Assembly: GCA_032622095.1 (NCBI GenBank)
Contig: CP136067.1
Location: forward strand, 137,861,866 to 137,925,865
Length of the DNA stretch: 64,000 nucleotides
Reading direction: 5' to 3'
From: Siphonodentalium dalli
Lineage: Eukaryota > Mollusca > Scaphopoda > Gadilida > Siphonodentaliidae
Each line of letters opens with the position of its first letter. The first letter of the stretch is position 1. Under the pieces are notes generated by a model. The model was not told the DNA's origin. It saw only the letters and a program-made list of their open reading frames with translations, and ran no database searches. Of the stretch, positions 23,034 to 62,349 are shown in pieces. The position numbers and the translations under genes are program-made.

Positions 23034-24469
23034 CAGGCACGTACATGGGGGGGGGGGGGGTGTAGGGTGTCTCACCCCCGATGAGGACCATAATTTTCAA
23101 TAGTTGGAAATTTCATGACTCAAATTCCCAATGTGTGCTGGTTGTATAAATTTTCCGACTCGGAATTCCAATTCTAAATAGTCGTCACAGATTTTCCAAT
23201 TCCGGAATTTTTCAAATTGTTTTTTCCGACTCCGAATTCCAAACCAGGATTCTATTGTGTTTTACATTTGAGCTTTTCAAATCATGCGGTGCATTTCACT
23301 CAATATGTTGTTAACTTGTTGATATGTATATATGTTTTTATTTTATTGTTATTATTTAAGTGTTCAAGTGACATTGCACTTATACATTAAGATCCTCTCA
23401 TAGCAGTATACTAATCAGTTTCATTTAAATTTGTCCTGCAAGGTAGCAATGTAATGTAACTGTTACAAGTTAACACACAGTCATTTGAGTAATATACATT
23501 CCAGTAATGCTCATTACCTGAACACATATATGAAATTGAAGACAAAGCATTTCCTACAAGTTCAGACTGGTGTGTTTTACCAACCGTAGCTTCATGGTCA
23601 CTAGTCTATTAGTAATGTCAAACCTCCATATATTTCTGAGGACAGCTTTAACGATATAACAATCATTCAGCATGCATAATTGTTACCATTGTGTGAGTTA
23701 TAACTTGTGACTCCTTGGAATTTGAATACATGTAACTCGTTCCTCAACCATATTCTGATTAACCCTTTACCCAACAAACCGGCCAAAACCGGCCAAATAA
23801 AGCTGCAACAGCCTAAATTATCTTGGGTCTGTCTCAATAAAACCATACAAATATGGATATCATTGGAACCGGCTCATTGACAACATTGTGATGGTTACAG
23901 TTATGCCCTGTGCCAATGCATTCTCTTATATATGCGAGTCGACCATAGGTCGCCTCGCATATATAAGAGAATGCATTGGCCTAAAAAAAATCTTTTTTTA
24001 ACACTTTTTACCATTTTTTCTTACATTCTTTAACAATTTTATAATTTTTAATGTGTTAAGCCAATGCATTCTCTTATATATGCGAGGCGACCTATGGTCG
24101 ACTCGCATATATAAGAGAATGCATTGGCACAGGGCCGTTCTGTTGGGTAAAGGGTTAATATCGTGTATAATGTACGTGTACTGCATGCACATGGTTCTCA
24201 ATAAATAACACATGGATCAATGCTATATCATGCTTGTTACTAGTGTCTTTATATACACAGTCCATGCTCTTAAAAAGAACATACAGAAACCCAAATTATT
24301 ACGCCATTAAGCCAATATTGGAATTTTGCATTACTCAAAACCAAATCCTATATAGTGGACATTTTATTAGACCAAATCCTGTATAGTTGGAAATTTTATT
24401 AGAAAAAATCCAATATAGTTGGAAATGTTATGGTCTCACCCCCAGTTGGAACCCTTATGAACGTCCCTG
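23034..24469. mobile_element. hAT-like non-autonomous element B with nested MITE (1,436 bp)
   Basis: Ends CAGGCACGTACATGG and, on the other strand, CAGGGACGTTCAT. Exact 8-bp target duplications TGTGAAGC lie at 23026-23033 and 24470-24477. AGTTGGAAATTT words lie near both ends and TTCCGACTCGGAATTCC words near the left. A 14-G run is at 23047-23060. A TTAA hairpin MITE (23763-24154) is inserted in the middle, so element B is older than that MITE. Confidence 0.88.
23763..24154 (+). mobile_element. TTAA hairpin MITE, family 1, copy A (392 bp)
   Basis: TTAA at 23759-23762 and 24155-24158. Terminal inverted repeats are CCCTTTACCCAACA. Two copies of the 69-bp hairpin (23912-23980 and 24060-24128) flank an AT-rich spacer. 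The asymmetrical left part reads AACCGGCCAAAACCGGCC and AACCGGCTCATTGAC. Copy B at 39389-39780 has exactly the same length in the opposite orientation and is nearly identical. TTAA plus CCC ends fit a piggyBac-derived MITE. Confidence 0.9.
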
Positions 24470-24479
24470 TGTGAAGCGG

Positions 24480-25240
24480 AGGCTTAGTGCCTGTACACGG
24501 TTCGATTTATCGCATGGTTTTTACTCCAAGTTCAGAACAGACCGTGTAAACACATGACATTCGTAATCTTTTACCTTGATTCATCACCGATCTGTCTGTC
24601 GAACGAATATGGTATGGACCCATTTTGCCTTATCAGACAGACGGCTTTTAATGACTTGAAGCTGTATGGAGGCAATAAATATGAAATAAGATATGTAGGA
24701 TGTATGCCCTCTGTATAACAATTTGGAATTATGTTTTGTTCGGGTCACAATACACCATCATGGTGGCCAAGAAGGATGCTAATATCAAGCCAACCACCTA
24801 CCAACCTATCTGTTTGGTCGCACAAAAAATAAGTAAGACATGGTACCTTGTGAGTATCTTCCACATATTATGGTATATATATATAATTATTTACTTGTAG
24901 CGAGGAATCTTAGTCTTCAGTATATAGGTTGTGGCAATATACTCAACAATCCACAATTGAGGGTACCTAATATATAGGCATGTGCTGGATATGTCAATAT
25001 CCAGTAAAGTGCACTTGACAGATTAGCTCTGGGGAACAACCATAAAATTATACTAAGTTTCTTGGCCTTCCAAGAAAATCAGATACTATAAACACAACCA
25101 TCTGTTTCCACCCCTGCTGTGTGTTCTAAAAACCATGCGACAAATCGAAGCGTGTAAAGGTACTTTAAGCTGAGCTAATAAAACGTGTTCACAAGTCTTA
25201 TGCTGTCAAGACAATATCAACGAGAAGCCAATGCCACGGT
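24480..25240. other. no gene recognised
   Basis: A 66-codon frame at 24700-24900 carries no motif. No repeats shared with the rest of the window were noticed. Confidence 0.3.
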
Positions 25241-25251
25241 ACCTCTGTAGT

Positions 25252-25770
25252 TTAATATAATAGTTCTTGCTCCGAATTTCCGACCACTCCAAAACGTAAT
25301 AACTTGATCCTATCATTCAGCGTAACGAAGCTAGCGACGTTATCCGATGACGTTGAGAGATCTTGAGCAAAGTGTTTTCTATTCTTTCGTTTGGCACCGA
25401 GGACTCTATGCTCCCCGGAGCACTCTGTGCTTGTGATTGAGGGGAATCGATCGAACACACCCCAGTGGAGCTGTAATCAGCTTTATCACCATCGAGATGT
25501 CAGCGTTCGTAGGGACGTTGTGATCACCCACTTCGTTAACCAATGTATAGAGTTCATTTAACAGAATTCTCGTTGACTCGATAATAACCTCCCATGACGC
25601 GGCTTGTATGAGGCAACGCTACACAAATCAAACGAAGTAGCGCAAAGAACTCCGGGCCACTGCCTGAAGGTTATGAAATAGCAACTAAATAATTCCCCAT
25701 TGGCGACATTGTTGCAGAAATGGTCATGCAGGTAACTACGATTCGGGTGGATAGTCGATTGGGACAACGA
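25252..25770 (-). pseudogene. coding-like but frame-broken segment, unknown
   Basis: Three overlapping reverse-strand frames read like protein in succession: NVANGELFSCYF (25558-25767), then LLNELYTLVNEVGDHN and ADISMVIKLITAPLG (about 25410-25580), then KRKNRKHFAQDLSTSSD and FVTLNDRIKLLRFGVVG (25252-25458). The frame changes suggest a decayed coding region or chance. The last peptide loosely resembles the L-x-DQ-x-LLK signature of nuclear receptor ligand domains, but that is far too short to claim. Confidence 0.25.
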
Positions 25771-25799
25771 CCACTCTAATGCTTAAATGTTACTGGTGA

Positions 25800-26335: not shown

Positions 26336-26439
26336 TTTATGAACTGAACGTCCCCATATAATTTATGATTACCACGCCCTATGGTTTATGAACTCATAGT
26401 TTATTGAAATAAATTTGAAATTAAAAAATGACCCCCATT

Positions 26440-27560: not shown

Positions 27561-27569
27561 ACTCCAGCA

Positions 27570-27875: not shown

Positions 27876-27934
27876 ATGAATTTCACCTGGATTAAAGCGG
27901 AAAGCGGAATGTTTGCCAGGTTTCAATAGGCGCA

Positions 27935-28325: not shown

Positions 28326-28329
28326 TAGT

Positions 28330-29225: not shown

Positions 29226-29227
29226 AA

Positions 29228-30680: not shown

Positions 30681-30774
30681 ACATCATTGGTAATGTTTAT
30701 ACGTTGATCAGAGATATTCTCTATGATAATATGGAGAGTCATAGAGTGGTTCACATGACTTTAACCCTTTCATG

Positions 30775-31036
30775 ACGGGAACTGCGCTGGTACAGCATTA
30801 AATGTTATGTGTCCGTGCATTCACTTAAATATGCGAGTCTCCCGTATGGAGCATCGCATATATGCAAGAATGCACTGGCTTACAAGGTCAAGGTAAATAT
30901 TGTTAGGCCAATGCATTCTCTTATATATATGCGAGTCTCCGATAGGGAGCCTCGCATATAAGAGAATACACTGGCTTACAAGGTCAAGTAAATATTGTTT
31001 TTTCGCAAAATTTAGGAAGCTGCATTCATTAAAGGG
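30775..31036. mobile_element. TTAA hairpin MITE, family 3, copy B
   Basis: TTAA at 30771-30774; at the right the site reads TTAT (30 bases beyond AGGAAGCTGCATTCATTAAA). Ends CCCTTTCATGACGGGAACTGC and its decayed complement. It carries two diverged hairpins (about 30818-30873 and 30905-30982), each followed by GGCTTACAAGGTCAAG. Confidence 0.8.
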
Positions 31037-31054
31037 TTATTTGATCTGAACATC

Positions 31055-31085
31055 TATACAGCTGTTCCCGATCTGTCACCGTTAA
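31055..31085 (+). repeat. left half of the 30405 repeat
   Basis: ACAGCTGTTCCCGATCTGTC-ACCG-TTAA, immediately followed by the first copy of the 1,048-bp duplication rather than by CACAGCG. Confidence 0.75.
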
Positions 31086-32133
31086 GATGGCGCTGATGCG
31101 ACCTATTTTTCCAACTTCACAAAAATATATCAGCTCCTCACATCTGGAACTTTAAAGGTTCAGTTTCTCAGAATAATACAGAATGAATTTTAACCTACAA
31201 AAGTCTCAAATAAATAAATGTGACATTTCTTCACATTACGTATAGGTGCGGGCAGCGTTAAGATCATAGCGAGGGGACTGAACTCTGTTTTGCAGCTTGT
31301 AGGTATTGTTGGATTTCGAAGGGAGACATACTTCTGAATTGGGTCACATGTCACAGAAAACAATGTTTCTAAAAATTAGATTAAATCAAACTGTATATAT
31401 AGTTAAATCCCTATGAAGATCACACTGAAGCATAATCTAATGTTGTGATCTAGTTTATTAGTTGAAATAAATTCACTTTGGAATAGAAAATGGATTTTCC
31501 AGGAAGTGTCATTTTGAAGGAAGTGTCCATAAGAACTCTATAATAGTATCTTCCAGCATACTAAACCAATACTTGCACTATATAAGTGTTCTAGCTTATC
31601 GATGAATCAAAAAAGTTTTAGCATTTATAGCATCAATTCTGGAAGATTAATTTTCTTAAACATTTACCATGACCATCAATGTTGAGATTAGCCAACATAA
31701 ATTGACGCGAATAATCAATTAATTTGTCCTCATTTACAAATGAAAAAAATAATATGAATACCAATCAAATATGGGGGAATACACAGAAGAAAGTATTACA
31801 TTGATATAAATGTGAATATCATCGAGAGGGTATACCTGTACATGTGTATGTAGACGTGCATATGCATGATAATATTATGGTATAATTATTATAGTGGAAT
31901 ATAATGTACATGTATGTGGGACGATTCGCTGTATATTATTATGATGTATGAGGATGTGCATTTTTCTTTGAGCCTCAGGAGTGGATCATTATCGTTTGTG
32001 CCTTTTTCTTTTTGTTAATTATATTGATAGATTTACTATGATCTTTCTGTTATTTGTATCGAAGAGGTCATGCAATTTAATTGTGTTCGGTCGGTTGTGA
32101 TAGTAGGCTTTCAAATATTTCGTTCTGAGGGCA
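31086..32133 (+). repeat. 1,048-bp tandem duplication, copy 1
   Basis: Starts GATGGCGCTGATGCGACC and is repeated directly from 32134. Differences are few, such as an extra AATC-containing insertion in copy 2 near 32380. It contains part of the AGTTCAGTCCCCT MITE in reverse orientation (31142-31308) plus about 800 bp of AT-rich sequence without coding signal. Confidence 0.95.
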
Positions 32134-33189
32134 GATGGCGCTGATGCGACCTATTTTTCCAACTTCACAAAAATATATCAGCTCCTCACATCTGGAACTT
32201 TAAAGGTTCAGTTTCTCAGAATAATACAGAATGAATTTTAACCTACAAAAGTCTCAAATAAATAAATGTGACATTTCTTCACATTACGTATAGGTGCGGG
32301 CAGCGTTAAGATCATAGCGAGGGGACTGAACTCTGTTTTGCAGCTTGTAGGTATTGTTGGATTTCAAAGGGAGACAAATCATACTTCTGAGTTGGGTCAC
32401 ATGTCACAGAAAACAATGTTTCTAAAAATTAGATTAAATCAAACTGTATATATAGTTAAATCCCTATGAAGATCACACTAAAGCAGAATCTAATGTTGTG
32501 ATCTAGTTTATTAGTTGAAATAAATTCACTTTGGAATAGAAAATGGATTTTCCAGGAAGTGTCATTTTGAAGGAAGTGTCCATAAGAACTCTATAATAGT
32601 ATCTTCCAGCATAATAAACCAATACTTGCACTATATAAGTGTTCTAGCTTATCGATGAATCAAAAAAGTTTTAGCATTTATAGCATCAATTCTGGAAGAT
32701 TAATTTTCTTAAACATTTACCATGACCATCAATGTTGAGATTAGCCAACATAAATTGACGCGAATAATCAATCAATTTGTCCTCATTTACAGATGAAAAA
32801 AATAATATGAATACCAATCAAATATGGGGGAATACACAGAAGAAAGTATTACATTAATATAAATGTGAATATCATCGAGAGGGTCTACCTGTACATGTGT
32901 ATGTAGACGTGCATATGCATGATAATATTATGGTATAATTATTATAGTGGAATATAATGTACATGTATGTGGGACGATTCGCTGTATATTATTATGATGT
33001 ATGAGGATGTGCATTTTTCTTTGAGCCTCAGGAGTGGATCATTATCGTTTGTGCCTTTTTCTTTTTGTTAATTATATTGATATATTTACTATGATCTTTC
33101 TGTTATTTGTATCGAAGAGGTCATGCAATTTAATTGTGTTCGGTCGGTTGTGATAGTAGACTTTCAAATATTTCGTTCTGAGGGCAGAT
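32134..33189 (+). repeat. 1,048-bp tandem duplication, copy 2
   Basis: By eye about 98-99% identical to copy 1, which implies a recent unequal exchange or replication slip. It ends at TGAGGGCAGATA and runs into the second copy of the 30405 repeat. Confidence 0.95.
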
Positions 33190-33247
33190 AGCTGAGGGCA
33201 GTTCACAACAAGGTGATATACAGCTGTTCCAGATTTGTAACCGTTAA

Positions 33248-35339: not shown

Positions 35340-38300
35340 ACCCTATATGAAAGTCACCAGAGCTACACGTACACGCACACGCACATACTCTATCAACGAC
35401 TTTCTGGTGTCCAGTTTATCAACCCAGTTTTGGAAATACACCAAATCACATTGGGCGCCACAGTAGTGGATATATAAAACAGACTAATTAGAACGTTATC
35501 GTGTGTGCTGAACAGCATTCTTATATTCTCAGCCTCAATTGCTGGCCGCTCATTTGCAAGGGATTCAATAAATAATGTGGTGCCAACAGAAACGTCAACT
35601 TCAGCAATCAACTACCACCCATCATAGCCACTTCAAACACATGATCAGCCATTGGGCGAAGACTGCTATACATGTACCACACCAACGCCACCCTGGCCCG
35701 ACGACGCTATATCTTGACTGTTCAAACAACGCACATCAACCGATAGATTCCAGGTTGATCCACAACACCATGCACATACGAATAAAGTCAGCAAACGCAC
35801 ACATACCTCAACTTGATCTTCATCGCCAACATACATCTCTCTCTCCTTGTACCACCCACGTGAATATTAAGATATTGCAATATGTTCTGCACTGCAATTG
35901 CCATTACATAACTATATGCAACTCCATCCAAGCTTCATCCATACCAGTTCCGTCTACAGAAGAACGCAACAGACGATGCCACAATAACCATGCATGCAGC
36001 TCCGAAATATGCGGTACATCGGCAATTGGATAACTAAAAAAGGAAGGGCGAAAACTTACCACACTCACAGGCACTACATAAGCGCCACGCATGCGATAGA
36101 TAATCGACATAATGGAGCACACGGAACCAGCACCACATCTTATATGTACAAATCTGATCAGAAATGCAAGAATTCACTCTTAACACAACCACAGGACAAC
36201 AGCAATAAGGCATAAAGCGCAACGAATTTAAAGGTCAACTTGAACATAGCCGACCTGACACTGGGCATGGCATGCATACATATCTACCGTGACCATCGGT
36301 GCCAACAAAAGATCGTGTACAAGCAGGACGATGGGATATTGCTAGCTCATATAAAGTTACACAATGCCACAACGCGTGTTAGAACAAGATCTGGACGGAT
36401 ATGATGTCTGGATTGGATGTGTTGTAACGTATCAGCCACATGTCCTGGGGACAGCAAGTACATTCGACCGATGCATCCACAACCCAGACATGCGTGTTAG
36501 AACAAGATCTGGACGGATATGATGTCTGGATTGGATATCTTGTAACATATCCGCCACAGGTCCTGGAGACAGCAAATACATTCGACCGATGCATCCACAA
36601 CCCAGAAACAGTATAGTACACGGCAATTATGTTACAGCACCGCGGAAAGCTGCATAGCTTCGCACGCCGATATGACCCAACAATATCCATTTGCTAAAAA
36701 GACACACACACCACCTATGACTTGGACATTGGTTTTAAGGACTGGCAAATACATTATACGGAAAACAAACTGCCGCTCTGAGACTCGGAACCACATTACA
36801 AAGGCCACAACATGATACACACACGGGAATATTCTTGCTGCAATATGGGCGCCTGCTATATTCTCTAATACATCCAACGTTTGTGGGCACGTAAAATCCT
36901 GGTTGCTAAAACGTGCGGTAATGAACTTGTGCTGGGATACTTCAACCTACAATGCAAAGGCTGCATACATTCACGTGTCAACCGCACCAGACGCCGGGGT
37001 ACCAAACATGAACTATGTCCATAAAACCCAGTATATATCCACACTGAACAGCACCAGCCTACCGAAGAGACTCGATTCCGCAGATAAGAAACCGATATAC
37101 GCGCCATGTATGTACATGTAGCAACATGGTGGAATATTGTGGGCTCTATATAGAGCATGCACCCTTATAATCATTGTGCTAATTCAATAGGAGAGAATAT
37201 ATACGCACCTGGTTGATATATAGACCAATGCATCATGCATTCGACACACGGAATGCATGTAGCATCCTGGCTCACATATACGCTGCATTGCCGATCGTCC
37301 CAAAGTCACTTGCAGAGAACAGCTATTGAGACCCACCCAAAAACATAGCACGCGACACATAGACTAATTAATACTGTGGAGTTTTGCAGACGGCGAACAC
37401 AAGACAAGCATAACAACATAAATGTTTTGTTCCTTTCCGTTATTAGTATCTATCTTGTCCAAGGAGACACATTTCCATGGATAGCTTTCCTTGTGGTATT
37501 TAAACTTCACCTAAATCCGCAATAAGTAGGGATATCCATGTCAGCAGCACAGAAACAGCAGCATATATACAGCGTCCCGAGTTAGCAAATATACAATACT
37601 GTTACGTGCTGATATAGGCTCTGGTCATCTTGAAATGATATGGGTGTTTGCGGTTGGCGTTGTACGCGTGTGTAACAGTTGTTTATCAGATGCATGTGAA
37701 GTGTCCTCAGCCCACAATGATCCACACATCATCAACCGCCGACATCGCACAGCGATGTCTCCACGCCACGATTCAGTGCAAGCATGTTTCCAAACGACTT
37801 ACTCCACCAATTGCTCATCGTCGGGGAACTAATGCACGGATTACAATCTTAACCATATACCTGCTTAAATAGTGCAGCAATAACATGAACTCAGTCAATG
37901 AAAGCACACCACCACCTTGCAGCGAACACACAGCGCTTCACCCAGACACCGTCCAGTAATTATAATACCATTATCTGTTCATGACATCAATCAGTCCAAG
38001 CATGGATATGTTCCGCGCAATATTAGGATCACACGTTCGACACGTCGGATGCGAATTTTGGAAGGTCCCCATCGATAGTTCTGTACGAAGTCATGTTCCC
38101 ATCAACCGGCCACGAGAGCACATGTGCCACATAACAGCAGCGATATAGGCACACCAGAAGGGCGCGGACCGTCACCATGGAGAGTTCAAAACGGTTCACA
38201 ACATCAATCAATCTCAACATGTATTTCACGACCTTCAATAGACTATGAACGTTGGCACCAAAACAACATACAAAGACAACCTGATCATCACACTTTCAGG

Positions 38301-39380: not shown

Positions 39381-39388
39381 TGGTTTAA

Positions 39389-39780
39389 CCCTTTACCCAA
39401 CAGAAGGGCCCTGTGCCAATGCATTCTCTTATATATGCGAGTCGACCATAGGTCGCCTCGCATATATAAGAGAATGCATTGGCTTAACACATTAAAAATT
39501 ATAAAATTGTTAAAGAATGTAAGAAAAAATGGTAAAAAGTGTTAAAAAAAGATTTTTTTTAGGCCAATGCATTCTCTTATATATGCGAGGCGACCTATGG
39601 TCGACTCGCATATATAAGAGAATGCATTGGCACAGGGCATAACTGTAACTATCACAATGTGGTCAAGGAGCCGGTTCCAATGATAAACATATGTGTATGG
39701 TTCTATTGAGACAGACCGAAGATATTTTAGGCTGTTGAAGCTTTATTTGGCCGGTTGTGGCCGGTTTGTTGGGTAAAGGG
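39389..39780 (-). mobile_element. TTAA hairpin MITE, family 1, copy B (392 bp)
   Basis: TTAA at 39385-39388 and 39781-39784. It has the same 392-bp length and internal order as 23763-24154, in reverse orientation: CCCTTTACCCAACAG, hairpins at 39414-39483 and 39563-39631, then GGCCGGTTTGTTGGGTAAAG. The near identity of the copies points to recent activity. Confidence 0.92.
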
Positions 39781-39789
39781 TTAAAGACA

Positions 39790-40660: not shown

Positions 40661-41084
40661 TTGACCTAAAACCCCTGTCGCACTCCGCTGCGATCAGGCC
40701 GGCGCTTGCAATGCGCTGAACAAGTATCAAAGCGCCAAGCTAAACGCATTAATGTATCCAAGAACCGATTGGTGACGCAGTTGACACTGGCTAGGATGGG
40801 AGAGGGTCTACATGATCGCCCCTGATCATCAGAGCGCCGCGCTTGTTTTGTGCATGCACAAAACAAGCGCAGAGGTTCGGCTTTCTGACCAGGGCGCAGT
40901 ACTGTCGCCGTGGCAGCGAAAGGCCAGCGACGAAGCAAGGATGCATGCAAGCTACTCATGGTCGCAGCAAGAAACCTATCTTGTCTACTGCGACTGCAGT
41001 AAGCTTAAAACCCCCGTCAGACTCCGCTGCGATCAGACCGGCGTTTGCATTCCGCTGAAAAGATACCAAAATATGAATAACACG

Positions 41085-44778: not shown

Positions 44779-45505
44779 TTTTCAGGATTTAGTCGGAAAT
44801 ATGAGATATTATATCTCGACTTCGATTCGTTCAATTTCACCGAGTTATATGTCAAATGAAAGCGAATTTTAACCCTTTCAGTGGCAAGTCCGATTTTTGT
44901 ATCAACCCATATACCCTGTGCCAATGCATACTCTTATATATGCGAGTCGACCATAGTTCGCGCATATATAAGAGAATGCATTGGCCTAACAATTTTTCAT
45001 CATTTGTTATTATTTTTTACAATATTTTACAATTTTAATAATTTTTTCTTATAATCTTTAACAGACTTATTTAAGTTATTTTGTAGGTTTAGTGCCAGGG
45101 AAACTTACGTTTTTCATGGGCATAGAAATTATTACTATGAATACTTGATGATAGTTTTGAGTTATAACATGCCCCTAAGGTTTTATCCAGTTTGTTTTTA
45201 AATTCGCTATATAGCATGCTTAAGCATACCCAATTAAAATTCAACCCAAAAAAAAATAAAAAAAATAAAATTTAGGGCCGATTTTACAGTCCGTAAATTA
45301 GGGCCGATGAGATCGGCCCCTGGCACTGAAACGGTTAATGCCAATATAATAATACACACCTGAGGATATTTTGGCTGCAATGATCGATTTCTAGAATTTA
45401 TTAGGGTTTTGATAGTGGGTGTGGTTTGGTCCGAAATCGGTCACTGGAACCTTTACTGGTATAGTCTATATTGGTATTTTAGTAATTTTCCCCAGAGGCC
45501 TGTGT
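44779..45505 (+). repeat. dispersed repeat, paralogue of 7226-7500, split by a MITE
   Basis: The flanks TATGTCAAATGAAAG (left) and GGATATTTTGGCTGCAAT (right) are joined directly in the 7.3 kb copy. The 462-bp insert lies between them. Confidence 0.8.
44873..45334 (+). mobile_element. TTAA hairpin MITE, family 2, copy A (462 bp)
   Basis: TTAA at 44869-44872 and 45335-45338. Ends CCCTTTCAGTGGCAAGTCC and, on the other strand, CCGTTTCAGTGCCAGGGGC. A single shared hairpin lies at 44920-44985. The rest is AT-rich with TTAGGGCCGATGAGATCGGC near the right end. Copy B is at 61873-62349. Confidence 0.9.
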
Positions 45506-45992: not shown

Positions 45993-46456
45993 AAATGTGA
46001 CCCACCATATCAAATCCAGTCGTTAGTCGGGATTTTGTTTACCCTGTGCCAATGCATTCTCTTATATATGCGAGTCGACCATAGGTCGCATCGCATATAT
46101 AAGAGAATGCATTGGCCTAACAATTTTTTACAATTTTAATAATTGTTTCTTGTATTCTTTAAATTTTTTATAATTTCACCCATACAGAGCCCCAGACAAA
46201 CATGAGCAGACGACACTCTTCTATATGCTTCTATATATGTGTGGGGCTCCCTGCAGGGTAATGGATGTTTTTTATTTTATGTCCTAAAAATTGTAAAAAA
46301 CATTTATTTAAAAAAAATGATAAAAAATTGTTATTCCAATGCATTCTCTTATATATGCGAGGCGACCTATGGTCGACTCGCATATATAAGAGAATGCATT
46401 GGCACAGGGTAAAACAATCCCGACTAACGACTGGATTTGATATGGCGGGTCACATA
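45993..46456. mobile_element. long inverted-repeat element with paired hairpins (family 5)
   Basis: The left arm starts GTGACCCACCATATCAAATC and contains AGTCGTTAGTCGGGATT, then ACCCTGTGCC and a hairpin (46048-46116). The right arm is its reverse complement, with a hairpin at 46335-46403 and the end GGATTTGATATGGCGGGTCA. Arms are about 125 bp, so the element is a palindrome made of palindromes. The ends differ from the TTAA families and the target duplication is unclear. Confidence 0.85.
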
Positions 46457-46562
46457 TGTGCTGCGGCTGCTTGATGTCTCCATGTAATTGTGTTGATTTA
46501 ACCCTTTAATGACGGGAGTCATGCTGTGCTGTGCTGTGCTGTGACAGTGCATTCTCTTATAC

Positions 46563-46644
46563 CCAACAATCAGCGGTATCGGTCCTATGTTGGTGTCGGG
46601 AGTATCGGTGCCGGTATCCCGACACCAGACCGAGATAGGACCGG
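46563..46644 (+). repeat. TCGGTACCGG-like minisatellite remnant
   Basis: CAGCGGTATCGGTCC, GTATCGGTGCCGGTATCC and CGAGATAGGACCGG form an imperfect inverted pair. Similar words occur at 25.9-26.3 kb. Confidence 0.5.
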
Positions 46645-46652
46645 CTCTTGTT

Positions 46653-47689
46653 CAGGGACGTTGCTAGAGGGTCTCCGTTGGGGGGTGTCCACCTTGAAAA
46701 AATCCAATTGCACCCCCCCCCCCCCCTTTGAATCAGAATCACATCAAAAACAAGTTTGCACCCCTTGCACCTGAGTAATCAGGCCGAATATCCTATATAT
46801 TCGTAAACCATTGTTCTATATTCCCGGTATGACAACATTCATATATTTTAACCTGAAAATTGCATAAATCCTAACATCTAGTAGTCTAACTCCAAACATA
46901 TGCACACGGCTACGGGCAAAAGACAAATGCACACCGGGCCGACCATAGTTGTTCGGACCGGTGCCGGTGTGAGAAAATTTTGAAAACTGTACAAGAAAAT
47001 CGCAAATCCTAGCATCTAGACTGGCCTCAACTGAAGCTTTCCTAGTGTTGGAAATTTAAAACTTCATAGCCCCCCCCCCAGGTTGGAAAATTCTCCACAA
47101 GTTTGACCAAATGTAGTAAAATATTGATTTGTTAAACTTGTTAGCAGTTTTGTATTGGCCAGGGGAGGGACAATGACACGAAATTTTTTGAAATCTGAAC
47201 AAGAAAATCGCAAAATCCTAGCATCTAGACTAGCCTCAAGCCTTCCTAGAGTTGGAAATTTCAAACCTGACACCCCCACTTAGGTTGGACAATTTCCAAC
47301 TGATGACAATTCCAATGACAATGTTGACCAAATGTATGACAATATTGTTTTCTTAAATTAACTAGCAGTAATTGACTGGCCACGGGGGAGGGACCAGGAC
47401 ACAAGCTTTCCAAGTGTTGGAAATTTCCAACCTGTCACCCCCCTAAGGTTGGACAATTTCCAACTGATGACCATTTTGACAAAAAATATGAAAATATTGG
47501 TCCAAAAACAATTAATCCCCGCCCCGACAAATTGTTTGAAAATCAAACTACAAGAACATTTTCAATCTATTGTTTGTGTGAAATTTCCAACTAATGTTTT
47601 GGCAGGTATGAAATTTCCAACTGTTGAAAATGTTTGACCAAAGTTGGGGGGTGTGAGACACCCCAAACCGCCCTGTCACCACGTCTCTG
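46653..47689. mobile_element. hAT-like non-autonomous element C (1,037 bp)
   Basis: Ends CAGGGACGTTGCTAGAGG and, on the other strand, CAGAGACGTGGTGACAG. Exact 8-bp target duplications CTCTTGTT lie at 46645-46652 and 47690-47697. It is colinear with 21681-22755, including GTTGGAAATTTCCAACC clusters and a 14-C run at 46713-46726. It sits inside the family 3 hairpin MITE and is therefore younger than it. Confidence 0.9.
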
Positions 47690-47869
47690 CTCTTGTTAAA
47701 CGATATAGAAATTTAAAACTATTAATACATTTTATAAAGATAGTGGATATGATGTTATTATGATATATGTGAGTCCCCATCGGGGGGCTCGCATATATAA
47801 GAGAATGCACTGGCTTACAAGGTCAAATTTATCGAAAATTCAGGAAGCTCCAGTCATGAAAGCGTTAAA

Positions 47870-48550
47870 AAATATTTATTCGTCCCAATTAATATTACAA
47901 TTATGATGAACAACATTTTGATGATGAGAACATAAATAGAATAGAACAAGGGGAGTAAGATCTAGCAGCAAGCAGATACATGTATCCGCATTTGTTGAGC
48001 TATCTCCTCGGGAAAGTGGAAAGATTGTAGAAATAAAGAAAGCGCGAAATGTAAGTGCATGGATAAACATTAGGTTTAATAAATGATGCTATGTTATGTA
48101 CGAATTTACAACATGTGTCGAAAGGATAAGCGGAATTGTGTTGACTTTTGTCATATCGAAATCCTGTCCCGAGGACAATATTTTGACCGATAAGTACTGT
48201 AAATATACCATATGTGCTATATATTGATGCTAAGCTAACATTAACAAATTTAAATCATAAACATTACATTGTAACACAAAGTATACGTGCAAAACATTTA
48301 CTGAACCTATTGATCCATGGCCTTTGGCTGTTTGAAGCCTGGAATTATGTTGGCTTTTGTCACATCGCAATCCGGTTCCAGGGATCAAAGTACGGTCTTA
48401 TATAGAGATAAATTGTTTAATCACCAAGATATAAGGTGTCGCTTCCAATAATCTAACCGTGTAACCAACGACGAATAATATCGCTATATATGAAAATCGC
48501 GTTGTGCTAAAATCATAACTAACCAACATGCAAGATAATACTACTTAAAC
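47870..48550. other. no gene; partial relatives of the 48.5 kb duplication
   Basis: Bases 48318-48390 (CCTTTGGCTGTTTGAAGCC, GGCTTTTGTCACATCGCAAT) match text inside the 934-bp units at about 48829 and 49755. This is a third, more diverged unit. Confidence 0.6.
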
Positions 48551-49484
48551 GAATTTCAATGCAATATCAAGAACAAAATGTGCTCCACTAAATGATCAGA
48601 TGTCTTATTATGCGAGAACCTCACGCGAGACAAATGTGAGCCGACAGATTCCGTAGCTTCATATTACCTTTTTACTCCGACGTATTTCAATGCTGTTGAA
48701 GTATTTGTATTGATCATGCCACCAGCACAGCAATATAATTTAATGGTATATGGAGTATGATCGACAAAAGTTATTGACACTTACGTTTGAAACCTTTGAT
48801 TAGATGCCTGGAGATCACTGCTTTAAAGCCCTTGGCTGGTTGAAACCTAAAATTATGTTGGCTTTTGTCACATCGTAATCCGGTTCCAGGGATAAAAGTA
48901 GATCGCTACGAACGTTATATACTTTTATACGAGTTTAGATGCCATAGAAAAGACCGCTCCTCTTTACATGTCAGACACTAGGCCATACTTATCACAAATC
49001 ATTGGTGGGATATATACCGCGTATATATAGAGTTAAAATTACTTATCAGGAAATCAACTCACTGCATCCAAAAACCACCGTCCCAGACTCCCAGTTAAAG
49101 ACATATTATGGACTTAATTTGTTCAGGTACGTGAACGTGATAAATTAGTATTCAGGTGCTATGCCAACTTGGAGAATGTAGCATTCTGCTAACACCGCCC
49201 AAAATCTCAAAGAAATCTACCATATACAACTCCATAGAAAACACCGTCTGAACTACGCTCAATTGTAAATATTTACATCTCGATTCGGGACGCAACAATC
49301 GCCGATAAACTAACGCAAATGATTTCGCCATAGATACTCATTGCATTGAATTAATATATATGACGGTGTGTGTTGTAAATTTGGATTAATATTCATAAAA
49401 ATAACTACTTTGCGCAAGATTATTCTCCATTTCTATTTTATCACCCAACCGGAGTGTTTCACGTCACTTCAAAGGAATTTCAAT
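48551..49484 (+). repeat. 934-bp tandem duplication, unit 1
   Basis: Starts GAATTTCAATGCAATATC. It includes GATCAGATGTCTTATTATGC, TTGTCACATCGTAATCCGG, CACTGCATCCAAAAACCACC and TACTTTGCGCAAGATTATTC. The same series begins again at 49485. No coding signal. Confidence 0.95.
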
Positions 49485-50395
49485 GCAATATCAAGAATAA
49501 AATGTGCTCCACTAAATGATCAGATGTCTTATTATGCGAGAACCTCACGCGAGACAAATGTGAGCCGACATATTCCGTAGCTTCGTATAACCTTTTTACT
49601 CCGACGGATTTCAATGCTGTTGAAGTATTTGTATTGATTAAACCACCAGAACAGCAATATAATTTTAATAGTATATAGGGTATGATCGGCTAAGGTTATT
49701 GACACTTTCGGTTGAAACCTTTGATTAGATGCCTGGAGATCACTGCTTGAAAGCCATTGGCTGTTTGAAACCTAAAATTATGTTGGGCTTTTGTCACATC
49801 GTAATCCGGTTCCAGGGATCAAAGTAGATCAATACGCACGTTAAATACGTTTATACGAGTTTACATGCCATAGGAAAGACCGCTCCTCTTTACACGTCAA
49901 ACACTAGGCCATACTTATCACAAATCATTGGTGGGATATATACCGCGTATATATATAGAGTTAAAATTACTTATCAGGAAATCAACTCACTGCATCCAAA
50001 AACCACCGTCCCAGACTCCCAGTTAAAGACATATTATGGACTTAATTGTTCGGGTGCGTGAAAGTGATAAATTAGTATTCAGGCGCTATACCAACTGGGA
50101 GAATGTAGCATTCTACTAACATCGCCCAAAATATCAAAGAAATCGACCATACAACTCCATATAAAACACCGTCTGAACTACGCTCAATTGTAAATATTTA
50201 CATCTCGATTCGGGACGCAACAATCGCCGATAAACTAACGCAAATGATTTCGCCATAGATACTCATTGCATTGAATTAATATATAAGACTGTGTGTGTTG
50301 TAAATTTGGATTAATATTCATAAAAATAACTACTTTGCGCAAGATTATTCTCCATTTCTATTTTATCACACACGGAGTGTTTCACATCTTCTCAC
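49485..50395 (+). repeat. 934-bp tandem duplication, unit 2
   Basis: Same word order as unit 1 with scattered substitutions and small indels, by eye about 95% identical. It ends near GGAGTGTTTCACATC, where unit 1 has GGAGTGTTTCACGTC. Confidence 0.95.
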
Positions 50396-56194: not shown

Positions 56195-57100
56195 GATATT
56201 ACCGGGAATTATTTGAAATGGCGTACAGTACCCCTTTAACTACTATACTACTATACGTTTTGGATTACGGATGCATACCGGAAACATGGAGCAGAGGAGA
56301 CATAGTCCATAACTCTAAAAATAAAGGCGACCCCACCCCCAAAAACCTATAGACCTTTCACAATCCTGAGTTGCTTTGGAAAACTATTCACAAAAATACT
56401 ATCAAATATAGTACACGAATTTATAGAAAACTATGACATTCCAAGAAAACCAAGCTGGTTTCCAAAAGGGATACTCAACTGTTGATACGATTTTCATTAT
56501 GCGCATGCTACAAACAGAGCTGACCAGAAATGTTATCCTGTACTGTGCCTTTATTGACTTTGAGAAAGTGTTTGATTGGGTGTGGAGACCCGGGCTCTGG
56601 CAGAAATTACTCACTTGATATTAATGGTAAGTTTTCTGTCGTATTATATAGGGACTAAATATTCTGCCACTTCACGTGTCTGTCAGGAGTTAGACAGGGC
56701 GATACCTATCCCCGTACTATTTTCCTTATATTTGAATGACGTGGAACACTTCACGATAAAGTAGGGCGTCTCTTGCCTCTCAAAAATATCAAACCAGATT
56801 GAAATAGAATCGAAATAGAACACTTACATGTACATAAAAATACTTCTTGTACTATGTGCAAATGATACAGTACTCATGGCTGAGACCCCAACAAAATTAC
56901 AGAGAGAACTTGTCGCATTCAGCATGTACTGTAAGACATGGAAACTGACCGAATAAAGAGTATAACTAATTTTGTGTTAATTTCGAAACGTAGTTAATCT
57001 AAAAATAACAGAATTAAACTTTGACAGCATCAAGCTTGAAGTAGTTAAAAGGTTCAACTACTTGTGCATTATTCATACAAAACAAACCATTGCCACAACA
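56195..57100 (+). pseudogene. decayed LINE reverse transcriptase (5' part)
   Basis: Across three frames the fragment reads VLDYGCIPETWSRGDIV, KNKGDPTP, then ILSCFGKLFTKILSNIVHEF, ENQAGFQKGYSTVDTIF, LYCAFIDFEKVFDWVWR, GVRQGDT and ILLVLCANDTVLMAETPTKL. These are reverse transcriptase blocks in their proper order. The catalytic box, normally (F/Y)ADD, here reads CAND. With that, several stops and frameshifts, the copy is dead. CR1/L2/jockey-type affiliation is likely, the clade is not resolved. Confidence 0.9.
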
Positions 57101-57544
57101 AGCTACATATACAATGTATGCCGCTATAAAACGACCAAGCTACATATACAATGTATGCCGCTATAAAACGACCAAGCTACATATACAATGTATGCCGCTA
57201 TAAAACGACCAAGCTACATATACAATGTATGCCGCTATAAAACGGCCAAGCTACATATACAATGTATGCCGCTATAAAACGGCCAAGCTACATATACAAT
57301 GTATGCCGCTATAAAACGACCAAGCTACATATACAATGTATGCCGCTATAAAACGACCAAGCTACATATACAATGTATGCCGCTATAAAACGACCAAGCT
57401 ACATATACAATGTATGCCGCTATAAAACGACCAAGCTACATATACAATGTATGCCGCTATAAAACGACCAAGCTACCCATACAATGTATGCCGCTATAAA
57501 ACGACCAAGCTACATATACAATGTATGCCGCTATAAAACGACCA
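57101..57544 (+). repeat. 12 x 37 bp minisatellite inside the LINE
   Basis: Unit starts run from 57101 in steps of 37 to 57508. Each unit reads AGCTACATATACAATGTATG then CCGCTATAAAACGACCA. The only variants are GGCC for GACC in two units and CCCAT for CATAT in one. In the LINE frame the unit encodes MYAAIKRP, a recognisable LINE segment, so the array grew from coding sequence. A 37-bp step destroys the frame. Confidence 0.97.
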
Positions 57545-57850
57545 AGAACAGATTGTCCTTCATTAGCTAACCTACTTTATTTATTTGATTCGCAGGTTCT
57601 ACCAATTTTACTATATGGCTGCTAGGGGTGGTGTTATGGTGACAACCAGGTACTCGAAAATGTCGACCGCAAATTCTAAAGCATGTCATGAATTTGAAAA
57701 CATCAGCCCACAATTGTATGCTCTATGGAGAATCTGGAAGATATCCATTGGAAATCACAATAAATATACTCGTTCGATAATATCGAATAGGGTTAAAGCG
57801 GCTGACAATTTTGGAGAGGGTTAAAACAGAGTCCGTAATTGGGGCAGAGC
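57530..57850 (+). pseudogene. decayed LINE ORF2 (3' part)
   Basis: The frame leaving the last unit reads AIKRPRTDCPSLANLLYLFD and SQVLPILLYGC, then a stop, then HVMNLKTSAHNCMLYGESGR and YPLEITINIL. LFDS-x-VLPILLYGCE and C-x-VYGELGRYPL are standard LINE blocks after the reverse transcriptase core. This shows that the minisatellite sits within one original coding region. Confidence 0.85.
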
Positions 57851-57959
57851 AGACGTGAGTTTGATTGAGATTATGATCACATTGAGCTTGCGGGATAAGC
57901 GTGCGAAGTGAATTGCTTTGTCAGGCGTATGCGCGCGATAGCCTATTCATTCTAGTTAG

Positions 57960-59720
57960 CTCAACTTACTTTTGTAAGTTTGAGCTATTGCCATGGCTTG
58001 GCGTCCGTCGTCCGTGTGTGCGTTTGTCCGTGTGTCCGTGTGTGCGTGTGTCCGTCAACAATTTCCTTTGGCGCGGGCTACAGGTCGTACATTTGGTCTG
58101 ATCTTTATGAAATTTTGCATGAATGTTAACATTGACATGTAGATGGGAACGAGTCATTTTGGGGTCATTCGGCCAAAAATCATGGCCGCTGGTGGCCATC
58201 TTGGATTTCAAAATTCAATCCATTGGCGCGGGCTACAGGTCGTACTGTTCGTTTGATCATCATGAAATTTGTCATGGATGTTAATATTGACATGTAGATG
58301 GGAACGAGTCATTTTGGGGTCGTTCGGCCAAAGGCCAAAAAACATGGCCGTCAGCAGCCATCTTGGATTTTACTCTTTGCATGACTAAATCCTTTGGCGC
58401 GGGCTACAGGTCGTACCTTTAGTCTGATCTTTATGAAATTTGTCATGAATGTTGACATTGACATGTAGATGGGAACGAGTCATTTTGGGGTCATTCGGCC
58501 AAAAAACATGGCCGCTGGTGGCCATTTTGGATTTCAAAATTCAATCCATTGGCGCGGGATACAGGTCGTACTGTTCGTCTGATCATTATGAAATTTGTAA
58601 TGGATGTTAATATTGACATGTAGATGGGAACGAGTCATTTTGGGGCCGTTCGGCCAAAAAACATGGCCGCTGGTAGCCATCTTGGATTTTACTCTTTACA
58701 TGACTAAATCCTTTGGCGCAGGCTACAGGTCGTAGTTTTGATCAGAACTTCATGAAATTTGTCACGGATGTTAATATTGACATGTAGATGGGAACGAGTG
58801 ATTTTGGGGTCGTTCAGCCAAAAAACATGGCCGCCAGCAGCCATCTTGGATTTTACTCTTTACATGACTAAATCCTTTGGCGCAGGCTACAGGTCGTAGT
58901 TTTGATCAGAACTTCACGAAATTTGTCATGGTTGTTAACAATGACATGTAGATGGGAAACGAGTGATATTGGGGTCGTTCGGCCAAAAAACATGGCCGCC
59001 AGAAGCCATCTTGGATTTTACTCTTTCAATGACTAAATCCTTTGGCGCGGGCTACAGGTCGTACCTTTGGTCTGATCTTTATGAAATTTGTCATGAATGT
59101 TGACATTGACATGTATATGGGAACGAGTCATTTTGGGGTCATACGGCCAAAAAACATGGCCGCTGGCAGCCATCTTGGATTTCAAAATTCAATCCATTAG
59201 CACGGGCTACAGGTCGTACTGTTTGTCTGATCATCATGATATTTATCATGGATGTTAATATTAACATGTAGATGGGAACGAGTCATTTTGGGGTCGTTTG
59301 GCTAAAAAACATGTCCGCCAGCAGCCATATTGGATTTTACTCTTTGCATGAATAAATCCTTTGGTGCGGGCTACAGGTCGTAGCTTTGGTTGGAACTTCA
59401 AGAAATTTGTCATGTATGTTAACAATGACATGTAGATGGGAAACGAGTCATTTTGGGTTCGTTCAGCCGAAAAACATGGCCGCCAGCAGCCATCTTGGAT
59501 TTTACTCTTTGCATGACTAAATCCATTGGCACAGGCTACAGGTCATACCTTTGATCAGATCATTATGAGATTTGTAAAGGCTGTAGATGGGAACAAGTCA
59601 TTTTGGGGTAATTCGGAAAAAAACATGGCTGCCGGTGGCCATTTTAGAATTTACTCTTTGCATCAATAAATCCTTTGTCACACCATAATCACCACATCCC
59701 TGATCCGATCATTATGAAAC
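57960..59720 (+). repeat. ~160 bp satellite, ten units, two monomer classes
   Basis: Ten units share GGCTACAGGTCGTA, ACATGTAGATGGGAACGAGT, TTTTGGGGTC, TTCGGCCAAAAAACATGGCC and GCCATCTTGGATTT. Unit junctions are of two kinds: A (CAAAATTCAATCCATTGG) and B (ACTCTTTGCATGACTAAATC). After the first unit the order is A B A B B B A B B. The array opens with a GTCCGTCGTCCGTGTGTGCG block. Each unit has an imperfect ATGGC..GCCAT palindrome and a GCCATCTTG word like a YY1 site. Small frames here are readings of the repeat. Confidence 0.95.
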
Positions 59721-59724
59721 CTGT

Positions 59725-61325
59725 TATGAATGTCGATATTGACATGAACATCTAGTCTTACTTAGACATTTCAATTAGCACTTTTCCTATTCCTCCATTT
59801 ACTGTCGACCATTAAATTATTCCCCTACCTAAGTTGAGCTACAGTGTCATTGACACTTTCATTTTCGACGCAGTCGAGAGTGGAGTGTTGCCCGCCCGCC
59901 CGCCCGCCCTCTCGTAAGAAATAGGTTAGACCGCACCCCCGGTCAATTTGGTTGTCACGACCAGAATGGATTTCATTTGGAATTTTGCGTTAGTTTTACG
60001 ATGTTCAAATTAGGCGTAGTGGCAGGTTAAAGGATTGCAACGGTATTCGCGTTGGGCTCGCATATATATTCGCGCCGATCGGTGAAAAATTGTTTGGTAA
60101 GCGAAATGGTGCATGGGATTGAGATATATGCTACATATAGCGCAAGGAGTGCGCAAGGACCAAGAGCTGCAATGATTAGATTAAGCGCTCTTTTATTGAA
60201 GGTGCCCATGCAGAGGATGGAGCTGCGTGCGTTATACGTCATTTAAAATATATACAGCTATCGTAAAAATTATTCGGATAGCGCGGGTTGTGATTAGTTT
60301 AACACAAACTCATTTATAAGTATAGCAGGTGATTCAGCTTAGCTTATTAAATGAATTTTCACCAGAGCGTCGTGTACAGTATATCTGCAAGCTGAGCGCG
60401 AAATACCCAACAATCACACATTGTACAAAAATCATCTCTATATCTATATTTGCGACGAATTTGCCATGATCAAATTTTTATTTATTTTTCAATTTTCAGA
60501 CGTATTTATTGTTATTTAATGTTTAGTTATGCATGTATGTTGTACAGATATGAATTTAATTGTTGTTCGAATAGATTATAATAACGATATTTGAGTTAGA
60601 GTATAATTACTTTATGTTTATCTGAGTGAAACGATAAGTAAACATGAAACTGAGAATACTGCAATATTGGACGAAAATAAAAAATATGACTGACGAATGT
60701 TATGAAAAAGTACTATATGAGCTGTCGCTAAGACTTCTGAGTTAAGCAGATGGACGTCTTTTTAAATGGACAAGTCAAATTAGAGAAATTATATTTAAAC
60801 GGACATGGCTCATTCGAACTTCCAATTTTTTTTCAACGTAATTTGTAGCGACGGATTCGATAGGTCGATAAATAAACTAAATTTTGATATACCGACTTCA
60901 TATGCTCTGAAAAACTGTTGCAAAGTCAAATCCAGTTTCCAACCGTTTTCAACTGTTCGCCAGAAGTCAGACAAACGCTCTTTATTGCTACCATATCAGG
61001 AATAGACTACCACGGAACGCTCTTTTTTGTCCATGTCATGCAAATGACTGGTTTGTGTTTGGGACCAAAACACCGTATTCATAGTTGTATTTTTCAGTAC
61101 TTCAATGCGTCTTTTTGGGTTATATAATGATCCTAGAAAGGTAGCTCAGATATATATATCGACATATTTCGATACTGAGAAAAATTCAAAATCAAATAAT
61201 ATTATGTGTATTTTGGAGCGAAACCGCCATGTGGCTTTAACTGTAGTCAATCACAATTACTGACCTTTGAAAAAAATGTGGTCAAATAAATGTTAAATGT
61301 GGTCCTGGCAGGTATTTCAAGATTT
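59725..61325. other. no gene; one MITE-like word pair
   Basis: (CCCG)n-type repeat CCCGCCCGCCCGCCCGCC lies at about 59890. Bases 60970-61030 (AAACGCTCTTTATT..CCATATCAGGAA, GAACGCTCTTTT) resemble the interior of family 4 MITEs, so a relic is possible. Confidence 0.4.
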
Positions 61326-61419
61326 CAAGGTCCGAAAGAGACAACTCAAGTAGAGGCAATATCCATCGCATATATAAGCATATCACTTTTGATAAATATC
61401 TGGAAATCTTGCAATCGAA

Positions 61420-61745
61420 TTGAATTATGTAGGCTCAGAACCGCTAACTGCTAACCATAACCTCCCAATCGAGACCGGGAGGTGGAATGGGATAAGTCAC
61501 AATAAAAGAAAATGCCCATTATGTAAAACTGACATGATTGCTCATGAGTACCGCTATTTTATGGAATGCAAACAAAAAATCTAAATATTAGGTAGCAATT
61601 TATCCCCAAAAAGTACCACAGAAAAGCGAACCTTATCAAAAATGGACGACATTTTGAATTCACAACCCTCAACAATGTATGCATACTTTTTATTAAAAAA
61701 AAGGAAAAATCGGTCCAGCGGTCTGGGACAAAAATCGCGAGCGGA
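61420..61745 (+). pseudogene. LINE ORF2 C-terminus scrap
   Basis: One frame reads NHNLPIETGRWNGISHNKRK, then CPLCKTDMIAHEYRYFMECK, then after a stop SKMDDILNSQPSTMYAYFLL. 'LPIE.GRW' followed by a CPLC-x(n)-HEY-x-x-x-x-EC knuckle is the characteristic end of many LINE proteins. A short and dead copy with no visible 3' tail. Confidence 0.8.
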
Positions 61746-61872
61746 CAGACAGATAATACTCATTTATTCAGATTTATTTATTTATATACCAGAGTTATGG
61801 AGACACGGAGTCAGTATGAGTGTTCATTGCTTCAGTGGTATATATATACATATGTGAGGTTCCACTCATTAA

Positions 61873-62349
61873 CCCTTTCAGTGCCAGGTCCGATTTTTGT
61901 ATCAACCCATATACCCTGTGCAAATGCATTCTCTTATATATGCGAGTCGACCATAGGTCGCCTCGCATATATAAGAGAATGCATTGGCCTAACAATTTTT
62001 CATCATTTGTTATTATTTTTTACAATTTTAATAATTTTTTCTTATATTCTTTAACAGACTTATTTTGTAGGTTTAGTGCCAGGGAATCTTACGTTTTTCA
62101 TGGGCATAAAATTATTACTATCAATACTTGGTGATAGTTTTGAGTTATAACATGCCCCTAAGGTTTTATCCAGTTTGTTTTTAAATTCGCCATAGCATGC
62201 TTAAGCTTACCCAAAAAAAATTCAACACAAAAAGATCTAAAAACAAAAAAAAAACAATTTTTTATTTTTTTATATTTTTTATTTTTTTAGGGCCGATTTT
62301 ACAGACCTTAAATTAGGGCCGATGAGATCGGCCCCTGGCACTGAAAGGG
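61873..62349 (+). mobile_element. TTAA hairpin MITE, family 2, copy B (477 bp)
   Basis: TTAA at 61869-61872 and 62350-62353. Ends CCCTTTCAGTGCCAGGTCC and, on the other strand, CCCTTTCAGTGCCAGGGGC. Hairpin at 61920-61988. It is nearly identical to copy A except for the A/T-run lengths at 62215-62290. Same orientation as copy A. The overlapping small frames are chance readings. Confidence 0.92.

Follow-up and report, generated by a model that had tools for sequence, protein, structure and literature searches.

A palindromic module of nearly constant sequence recurs beside the tips of differently ended MITEs in the window, by which we mean the whole 64,000-base stretch of DNA analysed here, and comparison of its copies supports the earlier suggestion that this core has had a history apart from that of its carriers. 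We propose that the subterminal module acts in cis for mobility and has been retained while recombination swapped tips and arms around it, a reading in which the function is the conjectural part and to which we give a probability of about 0.48. The palindrome would belong to the transposon end and act in cis there, most probably as a site at which a transposase or a partner binds or assembles; copies with an intact module would multiply, and ectopic recombination or conversion would exchange tips and arms among them, so that differently tipped families end up with one core. Among the three roles offered in the preliminary description (a mobile cassette, a structure needed for transposition, a source of small RNAs), need in transposition seems to us the best. 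The near-tip position of the module, its constant polarity and the presence of the hairpin in every element recovered by the TTAA scan described below support the cis-acting reading.

The hairpin and its carriers

All eight sites at which the hairpin had been listed do hold it, although one starts at 39415 and not at 39414. Its description as a near-perfect hairpin of about 69 bp suits seven of the eight, which are 69 nt long and leave no more than 2 of the 33 arm positions unpaired; the other, at 44920-44985, has lost 3 bp and pairs at 25 of 31 positions, counting from the ends. The copies described as decayed are real as well: those at 9009, 10955, 30816, 30907 and 47763 match the 69-mer with BLAST E values of 1e-16 to 4e-10. 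In the window's 64,000 bases a 20-mer of the hairpin is found at 24 places when up to 3 mismatches are allowed, where 0.01 would be expected. Hairpins with the apex CGACC-ATA-GGTCG are here called type A. The carriers, designated E1 to E9, and their hairpins are as follows.

23759..24158, + strand: E1, a 400-bp TTAA-flanked element with tips CCCTTTACCCAACA (14/14 tip bases match) and a head-to-head hairpin pair
23912..23980, + strand: left-arm hairpin of E1, type A
24060..24128, - strand: right-arm hairpin of E1, type A, in opposite orientation
23905-24135: module of E1, CCCTGT...ACAGGG, 231 bp
39385..39784, - strand: E2, a second copy of E1 on the opposite strand, 97% identical
39415..39483, + strand: hairpin of E2, type A
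39563..39631, - strand: hairpin of E2, type A
44869..45338, + strand: E3, a 470-bp TTAA element with tips CCCTTTCAGTGGCA / CCGTTTCAGTGCCA and a single hairpin near its left end
44920..44985, + strand: hairpin of E3, type A with the 3-bp deletion
61869..62353, + strand: E4, sister of E3, 485 bp, tips CCCTTTCAGTGCCA, TTAA on both sides
61920..61988, + strand: hairpin of E4, type A
30761..31040, + strand: E5, degenerate, left tip TTAACCCTTTCATGACGGG, with two tandem older hairpins (30811-30879 and 30907-30975)
8961..9177, + strand: E6, degenerate, left tip TTAACCCTTCCATGACTGG, with a hairpin (9009-9077) and an opposite half hairpin (about 9093-9127)
46498..47868, strand not assigned: E7, of CATGACGGG type, 11/14 tip bases matching, broken up by a dispersed repeat, with a half hairpin at 46543-46562 and a hairpin remnant at 47763-47814
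10942..11010, - strand: E8, a hairpin relic, tips not seen
45997..46453, strand not assigned: E9, tips GTGACCC(A/G)CCATAT, arms of about 150 bp with a module in each, outer edges placed to within a few bases
46048..46116, + strand: left-arm hairpin of E9, type A
46335..46403, - strand: right-arm hairpin of E9, type A

E5, E6 and E8 carry older hairpins that are related to type A but have diverged from it, and E8 resembles the right end of E6 to about 28 bp past the hairpin. Hairpin types differ at two apex pairs, each changed on both sides (G-C to T-A and A-T to C-G), with the stem mostly retained. Among the 12 related sequences, 9 of them distinct, such both-sided changes are matched by 129 of 500 shuffles, and the apex covariation may reflect a single ancestral change. 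A palindrome at 18261-18327 is unrelated, though its covariance-model E-value of 9e-5 slightly beats the 1.3e-4 of the E7 remnant; because the covariance model ranks the two in this order, the identification of the remnant rests on BLAST (E 4e-10).

Folded as DNA, the copy at 23912 has a predicted energy of -35.4 kcal/mol (z -15.6), which 0 of 200 shuffles equalled. The predicted RNA fold of the same copy, -54.3 kcal/mol (z -14.3), would suit a role as precursor of siRNAs or miRNAs after transcription, for which the stem would be retained. We consider this highly improbable: such folding is general to near-perfect palindromes, no Rfam family matches at its gathering score anywhere in the 64,000 bases, and a module that silenced its own family would hardly be favoured to spread. 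A tRNA scan of the window gave no match.

Tips and class of the elements

The terminal repeats had been called unrelated, but three of the four tip types begin with TTAA followed by CCCTTT, after which they vary, and TTAACCCTTT is found in all three. Ends of this form are the signature of piggyBac-type MITEs. According to the account in PMC10813416, CCCTT is the most conserved piggyBac tip motif and piggyBac TIRs are highly divergent. TTAA stands on both sides of E1, E2, E3, E4 and E7 and on the left of E5 and E6; E8 has no visible ends. Within the five elements flanked on both sides the CC(C/T)T inverted-repeat tips match at 11 to 14 of 14 bases, with changes at the right-hand tips of E3 (CCG) and E7 (CGC), and E1 to E4 are short (400-485 bp) and without coding capacity, as piggyBac-type MITEs are. 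E4 does overlap two frames running from stop to stop (152 and 104 aa), but neither matches any Pfam family.

When the window was scanned for TTAA followed by a CC tip, with an inverted tip match of at least 10/14 and a length of up to 2 kb, five elements were found, all five of them hairpin carriers; the reversed window, used as a control, gave 0. A scan for further TTAA elements with any tip (11/14, up to 1 kb) returned three candidates against four in its control, and these were not counted. Pfam revealed no transposase among the 33 of 33 listed open reading frames of at least 100 aa in the 64-kb window. The matches that it gave fell under the curated cut-offs: a DEAD helicase at 20567-20881 (16.3 of 26 bits) and WD_LRWD1 at 36816-37121 (17.3 of 30.7 bits). 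Exact 27- and 21-bp patterns had no match in viral_contigs or genome_contigs, nor had the hairpin and tip strings any in the literature searched.

Separate histories of module and tips

The shared unit is larger than the 69 bp first assigned to it, since it starts with CCCTGT 6 bp ahead of the hairpin and extends into AT-rich sequence. CCCTGT, hairpin and AT-rich sequence together make up the module, which is frequently a head-to-head pair but may adjoin a tip singly, twice inverted or twice in tandem. Of 10 arms measured, 8 have it 20-45 bases inward of the tip and two have it 143 bases inward, and its polarity relative to the tip is identical in all seven readable type A arms.

Between type A families the 69-mer is 67 or 68/69 identical (14 arm pairs, with E3 left out), the three families are not separable at any hairpin position, and the AT-rich stretch beside it is 66-80% identical where alignable. 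Outward, the likeness stops within a few bases of CCCTGT: over the outer 40 bp of the type A carriers, 18 of 20 between-family arm pairs lie within the range of shuffles. The exceptions are weakly above chance, E3 against the left arm of E9 (3/300 shuffles as good) and E3 against its right arm (22/300). Such a contrast bears on the idea that all carriers derive from a single old module-bearing element whose tips alone diverged by mutation. The string common to the three TTAA tip types and the diverged type A relatives in E5, E6 and E8 would fit that descent, but point mutation gives no such single breakpoint between an adjoining hairpin and outer bases at shuffle level, and we find it very hard to credit.

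The edge near CCCTGT shared by the three type A families, together with the two inverted 80-bp arms that E1 and E2 each have, might instead mark the module (231 bp in E1) as a transposon in its own right, inserted into different MITEs. The suggestion of a repeatedly acquired mobile cassette has nevertheless lost ground, and we regard it as improbable. Reading the module edges by eye in E1 to E4 and E6 revealed no target-site duplication, and the TA on each side of the module in E9 lies inside arms that are themselves inverted repeats. What is shared is an arm beside a tip: E3 and E4 bear one such arm, with the module at one end only, E5 has two tandem copies, and every match in the window that is this hairpin falls inside an element or in the relic E8.

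The clearest discordance is that between E1 and E2, which differ at 12 positions in all, none of them within the 231-bp module, against 11 of 142 in the left arm (Fisher 1.9e-5). Module and arm thus have discordant histories on this comparison, and the divergence of the hairpin does not track that of the ends. The longest run identical between the two copies is 243 bp (p about 1e-4). Since the AT-rich spacer is identical as well (0/73 differences), the pattern suggests that a block was transferred, rather than that selection acted on the hairpin alone.

Block transfer brings forward the main rival, a recombination hotspot without function: stalled replication or cutting at the hairpins would be repaired by template switching or gene conversion, which would spread the module and keep it uniform. 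The block in which E1 and E2 are identical takes in spacer outside the hairpins, whereas their left arms diverge. This would be expected of such a process, and Galileo chimeras, in which one subfamily supplied both ends and another the middle, are ascribed to ectopic recombination and conversion in the account of PMC3573991. Arm-to-arm correction, however, should erase the T/C mismatch in the stem, which all 7 of the readable type A arms retain, and the module holds its near-tip place and its polarity; we judge the hotspot somewhat unlikely. E3 and E4, for their part, differ at 3/73 positions in the module and 17/375 in the remainder (Fisher p 1.0), plus the 3-bp gap. Such equal divergence is expected of dead copies, yet it lends no support to constraint. 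The absence of the module from one end of E3 and E4 counts against the cis-acting reading, as does the lack of a transposase among the frames scanned. An internal copy of the tip in E4 (11/16 bases at 62068), considered as a relic of tip capture, was dropped when 29 of 500 shuffled interiors equalled it.

Known systems and the non-TTAA carrier

A cis-acting palindrome of this kind would have counterparts in piggyBac and piggyBat, whose ends, as described in PMC11707139, have subterminal palindromes beside the tip that are bound there by the transposase, in piggyBac via two cysteine-rich domains. Those palindromes are short, that of piggyBac measuring 19 bp and that of piggyBat being imperfect. 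No transposase was found in this window, and the same source describes the subterminal binding sequences of piggyBat as inhibitory and not required. The CMITE elements of Acropora coral, as presented in PMC2872659, are alike in their TTAA duplications, CC(C/T)T tips, TIR-defined families and a core better conserved across families than the TIRs. The internal region of one CMITE copy resembles that of another family, and in that account the authors propose a role for the core in transposition and leave its role and origin open. CMITE elements are about 100 bp long, against 217-485 bp here (1371 bp for the interrupted E7), and the text of that source consulted here mentions no long hairpin, head-to-head pair or non-TTAA carrier among them. 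The best match of the CMITE core 60-mer in the window is 12 bp (E 0.15), and the cores are unrelated. With core conserved over TIR but the CMITE core unmatched, the behaviour is CMITE-like without the elements being CMITE; and as that pattern was already known with an unrelated core, the sharing of a hairpin here is not wholly new. Galileo of Drosophila likewise has copies whose ends and middle come from different subfamilies, and long inverted repeats, but it belongs to the P superfamily, is kb-sized, makes 7-bp duplications and forms its chimeras inside one transposon family (as described in PMC3573991).

A constant core under changing tips would make the tips the exchangeable part and so explain how MITE families are renewed. 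MITE sorting usually goes by tips. A palindromic block that a transposon has in common with a MITE family distinct from it is known from the internal inverted repeats of Tol2 and the Angel elements of fish, in a hAT context and with arms of about 300 bp. The palindrome described here, with its 33-bp arms, fixed polarity and both-sided apex differences, lends itself to clear-cut tests of binding and of mobility.

The carrier type with GTGACCCRCC ends does exist and lacks TTAA, but it is present in the window as a single copy, E9. Its candidate duplications are AT or ATGTG. As a candidate empty site for E9, a repeat with copies at 48584 and 49508 agrees with the left flank of the element and with its first 14 bases; the right flank has no clear match. 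A role specific to piggyBac fails to explain E9, whose tips differ and which lacks TTAA. One palindromic end module could serve two transposase systems, piggyBac-type for the TTAA elements and another for the non-TTAA E9, as a portable enhancer of mobility gained by MITEs of different superfamilies beside any tip, an extension that we hold to be unlikely. If E9 should represent a true second superfamily with many copies, the sharing of the module across superfamilies would seem to be new.

Hairpin Copies and Their Carriers

The window has the appearance of noncoding eukaryotic DNA: its 64,000 bases are 38.6% G+C, a scan of its whole length gave no tRNA or Rfam match, and among the 33 stop-to-stop frames listed (100 amino acids or longer) none has a Pfam match above the curated cut-offs. 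A 20-mer of the hairpin occurs in it 24 times at three or fewer mismatches, where 0.01 occurrences are expected. All eight hairpins listed in the preliminary description are present, one of them shifted by one base, and seven are indeed near-perfect, each 69 nt long and paired at 31 or 32 of its 33 arm positions, but a 3-bp loss leaves the copy at 44920 pairing at 25 of 31 positions. The decayed copies were borne out, five older hairpins being matched by BLAST (E 1e-16 to 4e-10). A covariance model built from 12 hairpin copies, which it recovers by construction, also finds a remnant at 47746 (E 1.3e-4); since it matches an unrelated palindrome at 18261–18327 slightly better (E 9e-5), the model alone cannot tell those two apart. 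Within that second match lies a near-perfect hairpin (18264–18324; 23-bp arms, 15-nt loop, start AAAGGGTGAATTTAGTGACGCTA). A loopless 36-bp palindrome at 40837–40872 is also unrelated to the module.

Carriers of the hairpin (small MITE-type elements or relics)
E1, 23759–24158: ends TTAA-CCCTTTACCCAACA
E2, 39385–39784, strand opposite to E1: ends TTAA-CCCTTTACCCAACA
E3, 44869–45338: ends TTAA-CCCTTTCAGTGCCA, with small changes
E4, 61869–62353: ends TTAA-CCCTTTCAGTGCCA
E5, E6, E7, older elements: left tips resemble TTAA-CCCTTTCATGACGGG
E8, relic: tips not visible
E9, 45997–46453: tips GTGACCC(A/G)CCATAT, without TTAA

E1 and E2 are 97% identical. E7 is split by a dispersed repeat whose copies (21793–22755 and 46761–47689) are approximately 81% identical to each other. 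The terminal repeats had been called unrelated, and this does not hold for three of the four tip types: TTAA-CCCTTT is common to these three (changed in decayed copies), and they diverge in the next 8–9 bases. The pattern matches the look of piggyBac families, in which CCCTT is reported to be the tip motif that varies least, the terminal inverted repeats being highly divergent (PMC10813416). When the window was scanned for TTAA sites with CC directly after them and a match of 10 or more of 14 inverted tip bases, five elements came out (E1, E2, E3, E4 and E7), each a carrier of the hairpin; the reversed window, scanned in the same way as our control, gave none. The sample is nine carriers from one 64-kb window, with a single copy of the E9 type, and no relatives were found in the contig collections scanned.

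A possible further TTAA-flanked element lies at 10117–10794 (tips TTTCGCGCAGTACT and ATTCGCGCGGTACT, 12/14) and contains a 36-bp palindrome (10162–10197); such candidates do not exceed the control count. A repeat at 48543–49725, in two copies 92% identical, also forms in part the left flank of E9, and the likeness extends into the E9 tip, over its first 14 bases.

Extent and Polarity of the Module

We aligned the eight arms of the type A hairpin form (E1, E2, E3, E4 and E9), each oriented inward from its nearest tip. Likeness sets in at CCCTGT, give or take a few bases; this motif lies 6 bases outside the hairpin. Most arms remain alike farther inward, into CCTAACAATTTTT and then more AT-rich sequence. 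Scored as z against shuffled sequence, the 75 bases on the inner side of the hairpin exceed chance for E1L–E9L (5.0), E1L–E3 (3.6), E1L–E4 (3.5), E3–E9L (10.4) and E4–E9L (9.6), L and R being left and right arms; E9R is weakly similar to E1L, E3 and E4 (1.6 to 2.2), and E1R or E2L against E3, E4 and E9 are around or below chance (−0.8 to 1.1). On their inner side, E1R and E2L show the complementary sequence of the E1 spacer; E2R behaves like E1L. Over the outer 40 bases, 18 of 20 between-family arm pairs fall within the shuffles (z −1.7 to 0.6), the exceptions being E3–E9L (z 2.9; matched or bettered by 3 of 300 shuffles) and E3–E9R (z 2.0; by 22 of 300).

Leaving out E5, E7 and E8, the tip-to-module distance is 20–45 bases in eight of ten arms and 143 in the other two, one each in E1 and E2, on the long side. 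Polarity is constant in 7/7 type A arms, both for a T-versus-C mismatch in the stem and for the ATA loop, the eighth (E3) having lost the mismatch position to its deletion. Head-to-head pairs of the module occur in E1, E2, E9 and, with a half copy, E6; E3 and E4 have a single module, and in E5 the modules are in tandem.

The type A apex, CGACC-ATA-GGTCG, is approximately CTCCC-ATA-GGGAG in E5 and E8, a form with which E6 agrees on the 3′ side only. Two pairs are changed on both sides: G-C to T-A in four of nine distinct rows, and A-T to C-G in three of nine, the latter unpaired in one other row. Only 1 of 500 shuffles reached the covariation score, but 129 of 500 reached the count of such pairs, and the rows are related to one another. 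The apex change is compatible with one ancestral change in which the palindrome was kept.

History of Hairpin and Carrier

Between the three type A families (E1/E2, E3/E4 and E9), each of the 14 arm pairs that do not involve E3 agrees at 67 or 68 of the 69 positions of the 69-mer; no position separates the families, every difference being confined to a single copy. The adjoining stretch (identical/mismatched: E4–E9L 44/11, E1L–E9L 45/23, E1L–E4 42/20) has drifted relative to the conserved 69-mer, and the evidence for this contrast is moderate because the AT-rich alignment is uncertain.

The comparison of E1 with E2 is the clearest result on history. Their 12 mismatches in 400 bases comprise 11/142 in the left arm, 0/231 in module plus spacer and 1/19 on the right side (left arm versus module, Fisher p 1.9e-5). 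Placed at random, the mismatches leave 243 bases in a row free of them about once in 10,000 placements. The hairpin does not track the ends, the comparison that the preliminary description had proposed; module and arm therefore differed in age at insertion, or the module was later overwritten. The spacer is identical too (0/73; p 0.017 versus the left arm), which counts against selection on the hairpin alone. A functionless hairpin whose spread was driven by conversion is the main rival to the cis-acting reading given below, and in our estimate the less probable of the two. Chimeric copies of Galileo have been ascribed to ectopic recombination (PMC3573991). E3 and E4 give no contrast (module 3/73, elsewhere 17/375 mismatches; Fisher p 1.0), in addition to the 3-bp gap in the E3 hairpin.

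Possible Role and Relation to Known Elements

A palindrome just inside the tip, of constant polarity and with its stem kept as the apex changes, fits a site for end recognition or assembly. The piggyBac transposase binds one tip motif mainly through its core and an adjoining palindrome through two cysteine-rich domains; in piggyBat, subterminal sequences are reported to inhibit mobility (PMC11707139). We give the suggestion that the module acts in cis for element mobility a probability of slightly under one half, graded a little lower because of the piggyBat inhibition and the E3/E4 mismatch count. In view of that inhibition, a regulatory or inhibitory role for the hairpin is also possible. 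Its larger size and its perfection, and its presence in E9, would not be expected from what is known of piggyBac, so that a host factor or an effect of DNA structure is possible.

Coral CMITE families have TTAA, CC(C/T)T tips and tip-defined families, with a core that is more conserved than the tips; in one copy it resembles that of another family (PMC2872659, accessible portions). They are the same kind of system as the window carriers but with a different core, and the CMITE consensus has no match in the window; the long near-perfect hairpin, the inverted pairing and one non-TTAA carrier go beyond what is described there. No earlier account of this hairpin was found by sequence or word, in a search that took in neither the repeat databases nor the majority of subscription journals.

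The window also holds a 1.05-kb direct tandem duplication (31085–33192, 98.4% identical) beginning just past E5, an array of 12 copies of 37 bp (57099–57546, 98%), and another array at 58064–59575 with reported periods of both 164 bp and 484 bp.
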